Source: a virus. Taken from it: 64,000 nt of DNA. Each line of letters begins with the position of its first letter. Within the stretch, counting starts at the first letter, position 1. The position numbers and the translations under genes were made by a program. This document shows, in pieces, positions 19,868 through 27,807 of this stretch. Below the pieces are notes generated by a model. The model was not told where the DNA came from. It saw nothing but the letters and a program-made list of their open reading frames with translations, and did not search any database. Location: IMG/VR virus record IMGVR_UViG_3300025425_000009, positions 1 through 64,000 of that record; one strand, given 5' to 3'.

Positions 19868-20173
19868 ATGGTCACATTAAAAGACAGAACAACAGGAGAA
19901 GAGTATCCTCTTGAAGATGATAATATCCACAAGTACTGGAATGAGCAAACTGCCTACAAAGGTTCTGTGTTTGTCATTGAGCCTCACTTCGAGGTTGAAA
20001 AATACGACAAGTTTGCTATGCTAGTAAAAGATAACACAGAAGAGCCAGTATGGATTTGCTTCAATAGGGCAACAATCGAGAAGGAAAGTACAAGAGAGCA
20101 CATTACAGGATTGTTCAAGGACAACCCATTTTATCGGATTCATATATCAGATCATGACTCAAGACAAACTTAG
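19868..20173 (+). CDS. Hypothetical protein
   Basis: 101 aa with many aromatic and acidic residues. Ends 20 nt inside the next gene. No recognisable motif. Confidence 0.6.
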   Translation: MVTLKDRTTGEEYPLEDDNIHKYWNEQTAYKGSVFVIEPHFEVEKYDKFAMLVKDNTEEPVWICFNRATIEKESTREHITGLFKDNPFYRIHISDHDSRQT

Positions 20174-20564
20174 CCACATGCTCCAGTTACAGTCGGAGTT
20201 TCAAAAGAACTTCTACGACATTGCAACACTTGCTGATGCAGATAGAGTAAGACAAACAAAAGAGAACATGCTAGCACTACATAGGGAATTAGGTGAGGCA
20301 CTAAACGAGATGCCGTGGAAACACCACAGGGCAAACTCACAGTCCTATGATATTACAAAGGTGCAGGAAGAACTCATAGATTGTATTAAGTTCATGATGA
20401 ACATTTGTTTGCTGTGGGGACTTGATGCAGATACAATGTACTCCAAATTCGTTGAGAAAACACGTGTTGTGCAAACTCGGTATGACAAGGAGAAGGACAG
20501 GATACCGACTGCATTAGACAGTAACAGCACCAAGATGGGGTACAACACAGACCTCAAGAACTAA
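20154..20564 (+). CDS. All-alpha NTP pyrophosphatase (dUTPase/dCTPase type)
   Basis: 136 aa. ALHRELGEALNEMPW followed by KVQEELIDCIKFMMNICLLWGLD gives the two ExxE/ExxD metal-binding helices of the dimeric dUTPase/MazG superfamily, to which T4 gp56 dCTPase-dUTPase also belongs. Placed just before a dCMP hydroxymethylase, where removing dCTP and supplying dCMP would feed the pathway. Substrate choice (dCTP versus dUTP) cannot be read from sequence. Confidence 0.75.
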   Translation: MTQDKLSHMLQLQSEFQKNFYDIATLADADRVRQTKENMLALHRELGEALNEMPWKHHRANSQSYDITKVQEELIDCIKFMMNICLLWGLDADTMYSKFVEKTRVVQTRYDKEKDRIPTALDSNSTKMGYNTDLKN

Positions 20565-20566
20565 AG

Positions 20567-20613
20567 TTATTAACAGGCATACGGTGTACACTGTTGCACT
20601 TAGTGATTATAAT
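20567..20613 (+). promoter_or_regulatory. Composite promoter, leaderless spacing
   Basis: TTATTAACA 20567-20575, TGTACA 20585-20590, 17-nt spacer, TATAAT 20608-20613. The ATG of the hydroxymethylase is only 6 nt beyond the -10, so transcription would start at the start codon. Confidence 0.8.
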
Positions 20614-20619
20614 AGACAT

Positions 20620-21534
20620 ATGACAAATCGACAAACTGATCAGCAGGAACTTCACAATAAAGAATCAGCCGTGGCGGAATCTGCGTTTAGAGAAATCTAC
20701 ACCAGGCTAAGCCACCTTGGTGTTGAAGTTGCCCCTCGCGGTTATAAGGTTCTGGAATGTGAGGACTTCTCATTCCTGCTACCTAAGTATGTCAGGTTTG
20801 CCAATTTCCAAGTACGAAAACTCAACCTAGATTACATCAAGGCTGAGTTTCTTTGGTATTTGAACGGCGACCCTGGTAACACCCGGATAGGCAAGTATGC
20901 ATCAACATGGAACCCACTCATCAATCCTGACGGAACAATCAACTCTAACTACGGGCAGTACATCTTCGGACAACAGGACCAGTTCGCAATAACAAGACAA
21001 ACCCTAAGGGATGACAAAGACTCAAGACGTGCTTCAATTGTTATTCTGTCTCAGGCCCACCTGGCTTCTGACACAAAGGATGTGCCTTGCACTTACTCTA
21101 TCAACTTTAGGATCAGGGATAACAAGCTAAACATGAGTATACGCATGAGATCCCAAGATGCAATATTCGGGTTTGGTAACGACACACCTTGTTTTAGTCT
21201 AGTACATGAGATGATGTACATGAGCCTTAAGGCGGATTATCCTGATCTTGAGCATGGATCATACCATCATACTGCTGATTCCTTCCATGTGTATGAACGT
21301 CATTTTGCCATGTTCCACGCCATCACTGCAGGTGGCCTAAGCAAGGCAAAGTATGAGCACATCGCAATTCCTAAGATATCCTCCCATGCGGAAGTTGAAT
21401 TCCTAAGAACAGGGGATTTCTCTCATATACCAGATGAGTATGAGTTTTCAAAGTGGCTAACATTTTTCGAGAACGAGAAGTACAAAGATGCGTTAGCTGA
21501 TCTAGGCAAGCCTACTAATATGACATTGTTCTAA
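20620..21534 (+). CDS. Deoxycytidylate hydroxymethylase (T4 gp42-like)
   Basis: 304 aa from ATG 20620. Thymidylate-synthase fold: INSNYG, DSRRASIVIL, VPCTYSINFRIRDNKL with catalytic Cys157, and RSQDAIFGFGND. Asp188 sits where ThyA has the dUMP-selecting Asn177 and T4 gp42 has Asp179, so the substrate should be dCMP. SFHVYERHF also matches gp42. Makes 5-hydroxymethyl-dCMP, which implies cytosine-modified phage DNA. The gene appears to be read from a leaderless transcript. Confidence 0.88.
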   Translation: MTNRQTDQQELHNKESAVAESAFREIYTRLSHLGVEVAPRGYKVLECEDFSFLLPKYVRFANFQVRKLNLDYIKAEFLWYLNGDPGNTRIGKYASTWNPLINPDGTINSNYGQYIFGQQDQFAITRQTLRDDKDSRRASIVILSQAHLASDTKDVPCTYSINFRIRDNKLNMSIRMRSQDAIFGFGNDTPCFSLVHEMMYMSLKADYPDLEHGSYHHTADSFHVYERHFAMFHAITAGGLSKAKYEHIAIPKISSHAEVEFLRTGDFSHIPDEYEFSKWLTFFENEKYKDALADLGKPTNMTLF

Positions 21535-21535
21535 T

Positions 21536-25749: not shown

Positions 25750-25751
25750 AT

Positions 25752-26474
25752 ATGAAGTCACTTCTCAACGATGATACAGCGCAGTATCTTAAAAAAATAG
25801 ATTATACAAGCACATGGAGTGTTGGCCATCATTACAGGTTCCTACTATTTGCTAATTACGTAGTTAAATCTGGTGCCAAGAAGGTGCTTGATGTAGGATT
25901 CGGAAAAAACATGCTGATTCATTATCTAATAGATGCTGGGTTTGATGGCGAGTATATTGCAGTGGACATCAATCAGGACTACATTGATGCAGGACAGCAG
26001 GAATGGGATTCTGAGATCAGTAAGAGGGATGGTTGTGAGTGCAGTGCACAATACGTGTTCGGGGAAACAGTAAACATGGAGGTCGACGTTGTTGTGCTTG
26101 GTGAGTTTGTGGAACACATCCCAAAGGACACAGTCAAAGACGTTCTTGCAGGGTACAGGAAGCAACTAACTGATGGTGGATCAGTTATTATTTCCACACC
26201 TAACAAGCATAACGGTGAACTAAACTGGCCGGACGATCATGAGGATGAGTTTGAGTTAGACGAACTCCTTGAGGTAGTAGCTGGGAGTGGCCTTGTATCT
26301 CACCAAGTTGTAGGGTATTGGAACAACACAGCAGGTGTCAAATCACACCTAACTAAGGAGCAGTTGGCTACGTACGAAAATGATGCTGCGTATCTACCAG
26401 CATCTTTACTAAACGTACAGCACTGTTTGTCATACCCACGGGATTCAAGGGCAGTAATTGTAATTGCAAAATAA
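25752..26474 (+). CDS. SAM-dependent methyltransferase
   Basis: 240 aa. Class I Rossmann fold with motif I VLDVGFGKN, AVDINQDYI after beta-2, and VLGEFVEHI as motif IV, then IISTPNKHNGEL. Related to methyltransferases acting on small molecules or sugars. No DPPY/NPPY catalytic motif for DNA amino groups is seen. It sits between the dNMP kinase and the DNA glucosyltransferase, so modification of a nucleotide or a sugar is possible. Confidence 0.75.
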   Translation: MKSLLNDDTAQYLKKIDYTSTWSVGHHYRFLLFANYVVKSGAKKVLDVGFGKNMLIHYLIDAGFDGEYIAVDINQDYIDAGQQEWDSEISKRDGCECSAQYVFGETVNMEVDVVVLGEFVEHIPKDTVKDVLAGYRKQLTDGGSVIISTPNKHNGELNWPDDHEDEFELDELLEVVAGSGLVSHQVVGYWNNTAGVKSHLTKEQLATYENDAAYLPASLLNVQHCLSYPRDSRAVIVIAK

Positions 26475-26475
26475 C

Positions 26476-26853
26476 ATGGGAATGCATTTTGATGTAGCAG
26501 TATACAGCAAGACAAAGTTTCGTGAATCACTCAAGGAAACACACAGTGATGACAATGCCAAGGTCGTCATGGCAGCTGTAGAAGCTGCGTCAGCAGGGGA
26601 TGACAGTGTGTTTGCACTTCTTGCATGTGAATACTGGGATGACTATAACCCAAGGTGGGAACTACCAAGACTCATACAGGCGTTGGCGATTGATGTGACA
26701 ACCTACGATGGTGTGGAGGAACTTGACAAATACAGCATAGGCACCAACCACCAAGCGTTCAACGCTGAGGAGTGGTACAGCGATAACACTGGTAAGTCGT
26801 TACCTGCTCATCCATACGACGATGACTATGATGATGATAAAGATATTAACTAA
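26476..26853 (+). CDS. Acidic hypothetical protein
   Basis: 125 aa from ATG 26476 (26482 also possible). Strongly acidic C-terminus with an Asp/Tyr run. No known motif. Directly upstream of the glucosyltransferase. Confidence 0.55.
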   Translation: MGMHFDVAVYSKTKFRESLKETHSDDNAKVVMAAVEAASAGDDSVFALLACEYWDDYNPRWELPRLIQALAIDVTTYDGVEELDKYSIGTNHQAFNAEEWYSDNTGKSLPAHPYDDDYDDDKDIN

Positions 26854-26862
26854 CTTATACTT

Positions 26863-27807
26863 ATGAAAATTGGAATCTACAAACCGTTCAAGAAAGTGTA
26901 CTTTCATGATGACAAAGAAGACAACGCAGCATGGAGTTTTGAGGTAACAACAGTTGCCAAGATATTAGCAAGGCAAGGGCACAAGGTCAGTATGTTGAGT
27001 GACACTGATCTTAGGGATGGCGCGTTTATTAACATAGACACATCTGGGCTGAATGAGATATATGACAGGATCATACTGTTCAGCGGTACATTTTCACTTG
27101 ATAAAGAAGGTGAAGGAATCATAGACATTCTAAAAGGACTTACTCCTCGCCTAGACTTCATGCTCACCGATCTTCGTCTTGTACCAGAGGATAAGTCAAA
27201 ATATGAGATGTTTGACACTATCTACACCCAGGCTACCAAGCCTATAGAGTCAATAGGCCACTTAGCAAAACAAAAGTATGGTGCTATCTCAGAGTTTATA
27301 CTTTACAAGCATGAATGGGACCTGTCGACTGAAGAAATGAATGCAAACAAGAGCACTACATTTTATTTCGGAGGCACTGAACGCGGTAGACTGGACGACT
27401 TCATTGAGTATGTGTGGAGACCGAACCATGTTATCACAACTAAAAGTGCGTTCTTTCAAACTGAAAACAGGGTTAACCGTCACGAATACATGAAACTGTT
27501 AGATGACACAAAGTACAGTATTGTTATTGCTGATGTTGATTACAACGAAAACAGCTTCATCACACCCAGACCTTACGAGTACTACATTCATGATATAGTA
27601 GCGTTTGTGGATTCCAAGTTTGATCCTGATGGTCACATCGTACCAGTCAACGACTGGTGTAGAGTGTCCAGCTTTAAAGAGATGCAGGTAAAAATAAATT
27701 ACCTTGAAGAGAATGAGGAAGAACGAATGCAGTTGCTAATGAAGCAGCGACTTGTAATAACCGATGAACACATCACTGGGTCTTATGTCTATGAAACCAT
27801 CAAATAA
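26863..27807 (+). CDS. DNA beta-glucosyltransferase (T4 Bgt-like)
   Basis: 314 aa. Follows T4 beta-glucosyltransferase block by block: MKIGIYKP start, YDRIILFSGTF, FMLTDLRL with Asp103 at the catalytic Asp100 position, FYFGGTERGR with arginines in the UDP-binding loop, and NENSFITPRPYEYY with Glu239 at the Glu272 position, followed by FVDSKFD. T4 Bgt moves glucose from UDP-glucose onto hydroxymethylcytosine in DNA. A dCMP hydroxymethylase lies in the same region, which strongly supports the role. Overlaps the next gene. Confidence 0.8.
   Translation: MKIGIYKPFKKVYFHDDKEDNAAWSFEVTTVAKILARQGHKVSMLSDTDLRDGAFINIDTSGLNEIYDRIILFSGTFSLDKEGEGIIDILKGLTPRLDFMLTDLRLVPEDKSKYEMFDTIYTQATKPIESIGHLAKQKYGAISEFILYKHEWDLSTEEMNANKSTTFYFGGTERGRLDDFIEYVWRPNHVITTKSAFFQTENRVNRHEYMKLLDDTKYSIVIADVDYNENSFITPRPYEYYIHDIVAFVDSKFDPDGHIVPVNDWCRVSSFKEMQVKINYLEENEEERMQLLMKQRLVITDEHITGSYVYETIK

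Follow-up and report, generated by a model that had tools for sequence, protein, structure and literature searches.

Phage T4 makes DNA with glucosylated 5-hydroxymethylcytosine (hmC) through gp56, the deoxycytidine monophosphate (dCMP) hydroxymethylase gp42, gp1 and the transferase Bgt, and similar gene sets are found in phages that are not T4-like. The DNA of the Enterococcus faecalis siphophages VPE25 and VFW (2016) resists bisulfite conversion and EcoRI and is cytosine-modified, with glycosylation inferred (PMC4999554). In VFW (Vipetofemvirus) the cluster order is a kinase of family phrog_761, a hydroxymethylase with Asp177 (Escherichia coli ThyA numbering) directly downstream of it, and Bgt; the same three genes are consecutive in Lactobacillus brevis phage ATCCB, where a UDP-galactopyranose mutase gene comes next. 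Here we describe a related locus in a 64,000-nucleotide stretch of viral DNA (the window), taken from the start (bases 1-64000) of a virus record 75,657 bp long (IMGVR_UViG_3300025425_000009). As an earlier reading of the sequence had noted, four open reading frames (ORFs) of interest lie on its + strand within 8 kb: a gp56-like pyrophosphatase (20154), a dCMP hydroxymethylase (20620), a kinase (25213) and a Bgt-related glycosyltransferase (26863).

Comparison with the described systems

The window shares homologues of gp56, gp42 and Bgt with T4, but T4 is a contractile T4-like phage and its kinase is of the PF21448/phrog_139 family. VPE25 and VFW resemble the window phage in that they are siphoviruses with a Bgt, accompanied in VFW by the kinase and hydroxymethylase. 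They differ in that their host belongs to the Firmicutes, their DNA polymerase is of the polymerase III type, a further sugar-related gene lies downstream, and the annotated dUTPase resembles neither gp56 nor the window 20154 protein. Their Bgt is about 42% identical to that of T4 (about 40% according to PMC4999554), far closer than the window transferase, which is shorter than T4 Bgt and only ~20% identical to it. ATCCB shares the kinase, the Asp177 hydroxymethylase and Bgt with the window and differs in its mutase gene. Finally, the non-T4-like phages Xp15, Effie and HHU4 have the closest annotated hydroxymethylases (38-41% identity), but a NodU-like carbamoyltransferase gene lies upstream of theirs in place of a glycosyltransferase; hmC finished by carbamoylation (5-carbamoyloxymethylcytosine) is known from metagenomic phage contigs, and the NodU-like enzyme type is responsible (PMC8670742). 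A hydroxymethylase and a transferase also lie <2 kb apart in a 462-kb uncultured phage record.

Given a dCMP hydroxymethylase, a Bgt-related transferase and a pyrophosphatase of the gp56 type in a siphovirus-type phage that is not T4-like, the most likely result is DNA with glycosylated hmC, and it is quite probable that cytosine in this phage is replaced wholly or largely by the glycosylated base. In the proposed pathway, the pyrophosphatase would convert dCTP to dCMP, the hydroxymethylase would convert dCMP to hydroxymethyl-dCMP (hm-dCMP), and the kinase would raise this to hm-dCDP, from which a host nucleoside diphosphate kinase would make hm-dCTP. The family B DNA polymerase encoded between hydroxymethylase and kinase (22528..25161, + strand; Pfam DNA_pol_B 6.3e-46) is the likely enzyme to incorporate hm-dCTP into DNA, and the Bgt-related transferase would then place a sugar on the hydroxymethyl group, with host UDP-glucose as the simplest donor. 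The family identities of these enzymes are supported by their sequences, from which we infer the substrates, the order of the steps, the extent of replacement and the sugar. By analogy, such DNA would be expected to be protected from restriction or CRISPR, and its modification bears on the choice of sequencing, cloning and phage-engineering methods and on the reading of type IV restriction in these hosts.

The preliminary description had proposed a four-gene glucosyl-hmC pathway lying outside the T4-like phages. Its gp56-, gp42- and Bgt-type enzymes and the siphovirus-type, non-T4 setting stand, whereas the kinase is of another family, glucose was assumed, and the setting is not new, having been preceded by VFW and ATCCB. 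A claim to the first such pathway outside T4-like phages is ruled out, as annotated siphophages carry the set and one pair (VPE25/VFW) has been tested chemically. No publication on such a phage of the Bacteroidota, the likely host group (below), was found, but a hydroxymethylase is annotated in Bacteroides phages. The window phage thus adds a new and divergent case to a strategy already known, and its likely host group is new as well; it would extend glycosylated-cytosine DNA to a probable Bacteroidota siphophage, and it illustrates the extent of divergence within the Bgt family.

Enzymes acting on the nucleotide

The hydroxymethylase gene (20620..21534, + strand) starts with ATG, in a frame that opens at GTG 20584. 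Its product belongs to the thymidylate synthase fold family (PF00303, 1.6e-18), and its best match in the PDB is T4 gp42 (1b49; E 2.9e-18), ahead of every thymidylate synthase. It is 30% identical to gp42 across 215 amino acids, its similarity is far beyond chance, and the equivalence to gp42 suggested earlier is upheld. The catalytic Glu, Tyr, Cys and Arg are kept (E88, Y123, C169 and R189, numbered from the GTG). Asp188, rightly picked out in the preliminary description as the residue at the dCMP-selecting site (numbered from ATG 20620; D200 from GTG 20584), aligns with T4 D179 and E. coli ThyA N177, and a Thr (T170, GTG numbering) occupies the position of ThyA H147. Positions 147 and 177 are the two that best tell thymidylate synthase homologs of modified phage contigs from those of unmodified ones (PMC8670742). 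E. coli ThyA has His147 with Asn177, and the Thr147/Asp177 pair is present in 74 of 78 distinct phage proteins, the remaining four having Asn/Asn or His/Asn. The pair is good evidence for dCMP as the substrate, and the group added is presumably hydroxymethyl rather than methyl. Among the comparison contigs (L numbers; these come from IMG/VR and may be fragments, so that absence of a gene there means little), L022 carries one gene of each kind, a thymidylate synthase of the dUMP type (Asn177) and a hydroxymethylase of the dCMP type (Asp177), at 350-1318 and 4114-4989.

Directly upstream lies the gene for an all-alpha nucleoside triphosphate pyrophosphatase (20154..20564, + strand), a gp56-like dCTPase/dUTPase. 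Its protein matches Pfam dUTPase_2 (PF08761) at 5.7e-12, above the cut-off, and contains the ExxE/ExxD metal motifs (E45LGE and E73LID). Direct blastp to gp56 is weak (E 7e-4); the two proteins have phrog_173, phrog_18650 and phrog_12184 in common, which bears out the earlier view of 20154 as the gp56 equivalent, and the predicted role of the enzyme is to break down dCTP and provide dCMP. In marine contigs (L100-L125) a Bgt-like transferase gene is often found directly 5′ of a gp56-like pyrophosphatase gene as a conserved pair, and the 175-kb contig L107/L018 has a hydroxymethylase besides such a pair.

The kinase gene (25213..25749, + strand) encodes a P-loop (GADMMGKT) protein of the thymidylate kinase type whose only PHROGs match is phrog_761, "thymidylate kinase" (1.5e-10). 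T4 gp1 matches PF21448 (3e-107) and phrog_139; the window kinase matches neither and is weakly similar to gp1 by blastp (E 1.4), so the gp1 equivalence that had been proposed is ruled out at the family level in favor of a family linked to hydroxymethylases. When phrog_761 was searched across the full length of 46 hydroxymethylase-carrying contigs, 31 had a match. Among the 30 contigs for which distances were computed (one of them from the window's own phage population, G001), 25 have the phrog_761 gene no more than 1.5 kb from the hydroxymethylase, against 2.2 expected by random placement; this expectation assumes uniform placement and ignores relatedness, and since many of the contigs are related the number of independent events is below 25. 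Nevertheless, the linkage repeats in clearly different contigs (L010/L017, L008, L037, L038, L056 and L051) as well as in the annotated VFW and ATCCB. In the window itself the kinase gene lies 3.7 kb downstream of the hydroxymethylase gene, past that for DNA polymerase. The linkage is seen with the specific phrog_761 model and not with a generic P-loop search, which found no excess of P-loop genes near hydroxymethylases (8 seen against ~12 expected, a rough estimate). An AlphaFold model of the kinase from its single sequence was poor and gave no meaningful Foldseek match.

The proximity in 25 of 30 contigs suggests that the phrog_761 family probably stands in for gp1 as the hm-dCMP kinase of these phages, and hence that its "thymidylate kinase" name may be wrong. 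As a rule, phages that are not T4-like and have a dCMP hydroxymethylase tend to have a phrog_761 gene adjoining it, and this candidate hm-dCMP kinase family is the more useful by-product of the analysis. In contig L010 (1646-15562) a hydroxymethylase and a phrog_761 kinase lie amid several glycosyltransferase- and nucleotidyltransferase-like genes, possibly for a larger sugar modification.

The glycosyltransferase, its acceptor and its sugar

The gene at 26863..27807 (+ strand) encodes a GT-B glycosyltransferase that is a remote homolog of T4 Bgt and a candidate hmC-DNA glycosyltransferase. The protein matches phrog_7922 (1e-11), and tblastn against 50,697 phage records matched 60 records; among the matches listed, all are Bgt-type proteins of T4-like phages, the best being a Straboviridae Bgt (24.5% identity over 87%, E 1e-8). 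In hhalign, comparison with a profile of T4-like, Enterococcus and Lactobacillus Bgts gave a probability of 96.9 over 260 columns, against 0.3 for an unrelated window protein used as a control, and the top Foldseek match of its AlphaFold model is T4 BGT (1nzd; E 7e-7), the sole match below 1e-3. Residues D103, R174, R176, R236 and E239 align with T4 Bgt D100, R191, R195, R269 and E272, in agreement with the earlier assignment of Asp103 and Glu239 to Bgt active-site positions; both are invariant in the Bgt alignment (A2), and the catalytic-base motif TDLRL is retained. From the BGT structures we take D100 to be the catalytic base, R191 and R195 to bind phosphate, and the aligned residues to include UDP-binding ones. 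An ORF of L015 (8964-10064) was first flagged as a transferase; it is at best a GDSL-lipase-like protein and was dropped.

The sugar could be other than glucose, perhaps activated by the phage's own nucleotidyltransferase of the RfaE/GCT type (29453..29890, + strand; TIGR02199 4.3e-20, below the equivalog cut-off), a speculative alternative source that is encoded 1.6 kb downstream of the transferase. Homologs of this nucleotidyltransferase adjoin the hydroxymethylase in contig L034 and sit upstream of Bgt-like transferases in L110 and in the marine L120, with an epimerase beside them in L034 and L120; a UDP-galactopyranose mutase lies by a Bgt-type transferase in ATCCB and L037; and phage cytosines bearing arabinose or a pentose have been described (PMC6024577, PMC12838424). 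On the other hand, CTP_transf-like enzymes are widespread and serve many other purposes, and neither a UDP-galactopyranose mutase nor a kinase, isomerase or epimerase that would serve a second sugar was seen in this genome. The alignment with the presumed UDP-binding residues of T4 Bgt also speaks for the usual donor, and a sugar other than glucose seems unlikely, if worth keeping in mind. The narrower proposal, that the nucleotidyltransferase supplies a non-glucose sugar for a base not described before, in a Bacteroidota phage, is more doubtful still.

Several points weigh against DNA as the acceptor. Nearly all of the significance comes from the C-terminal (nucleotide-sugar) half, where the similarity is far beyond chance; the acceptor half (residues 1-205) alone is not significantly similar to Bgt, and the N-terminal alignment is weak. 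The protein has no match to PF09198 (T4-Gluco-transf) at E 0.1, where T4 Bgt itself scores 9e-98. The AlphaFold model is poor (predicted local distance difference test score 57) and was built from an alignment that included T4-like Bgts, so the Foldseek match supports the assignment but is not independent. Thus, it is the whole-length alignment and the gene context that make the case for DNA. With clear homology limited to the nucleotide-sugar domain, and with a match to PF13524 (Glyco_trans_1_2), the transferase might instead have a glycan or protein of phage or host as its acceptor and leave bare hmC in the DNA. This appears improbable, however, as the relatives among the matches listed are all Bgt-type, Bgt-family transferases are found with a hydroxymethylase in several unrelated phages, and the catalytic-base motif is kept. 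It is very improbable that the protein encoded at 20620 acts as a dCMP 5-methylase to yield 5-methylcytosine DNA as in Xp12, with the other genes in ordinary nucleotide metabolism: its sequence is compatible with that activity, in that the Thr/Asp pair marks a preference for dCMP and not the final reaction and dCMP methylases belong to the same family, but a Bgt-type enzyme would have no use for 5-methylcytosine and the closest characterized homolog (in a comparison that did not include the Xp12 sequence) is the hydroxymethylase gp42.

In two unrelated phages, L143 (10125-11222) and L037 (6997-8121), a gene for a transferase that is Bgt-type or Bgt-like has a UDP-galactopyranose mutase gene as its neighbor, and galactofuranosyl-hmC DNA is possible in these.

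Virion type, likely host and other genes

The last 100 bases of the record recur at bases 44-143, which suggests that the record is complete and has a terminal repeat no longer than 143 bp; a second contig of 57,957 bp carries the same gene block with 100% identity across the 20.9-kb stretches compared. The four genes are real co-directional ORFs inside an early/replication block (primase-helicase, DNA polymerase B and others), and the virion genes form a separate block on the opposite strand. Matches to tailed-phage PHROGs of HK97/siphovirus type were found for the terminase, portal, major head, tape measure and connector proteins, in agreement with the earlier assignment of the head and tail genes. 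The capsid protein matches major head protein phrog_10 (1.5e-59) with no gp23-type family among the reported matches, and no tail sheath match was found anywhere in the whole genome; the contractile tail sheath and gp23-type capsid of the Straboviridae were thus not found. By its protein matches the virion is of the HK97/siphovirus type and not T4-like, and the phage probably has a long non-contractile tail.

The closest relatives of the terminase are those of Flavobacterium phage 11b (48%), Cellulophaga phi10:1 (47%) and Bacteroides phages. Shine-Dalgarno motifs precede 5 of 71 genes, the same as in shuffled sequences, and the upstream regions are A-rich; such a scarcity of these motifs with A-rich upstream regions is usual for Bacteroidota. 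Together, these features make a Bacteroidota host likely.

Between the kinase and transferase genes lies one for a class I S-adenosylmethionine-dependent methyltransferase (25752..26474, + strand; Pfam Methyltransf_23 3.8e-7); no homolog was found near the hydroxymethylases of the other contigs, and any role in the pathway would be speculative. A class I ribonucleotide reductase small subunit (NrdB) is encoded at 40557-41531, with no NrdA-like ORF of fitting size seen in the genome, and a glutaredoxin-like gene is present at 44551. The ORF at 33907-34479 has a Fic-like motif (HIEFENIHPFEDGNGRVGR) and matches PHROGs of unknown function. An RNA-repair set consisting of an RNA ligase, a T4-type polynucleotide kinase/phosphatase, a second RNA ligase and a TROVE/Ro60 protein, together with 20 tRNA genes, is spread over 9712-10779, 11066-12040, 31283-32752 and 32898-44532 of the window and 70812-71438 of G000; it suggests tRNA repair against host anticodon nucleases.

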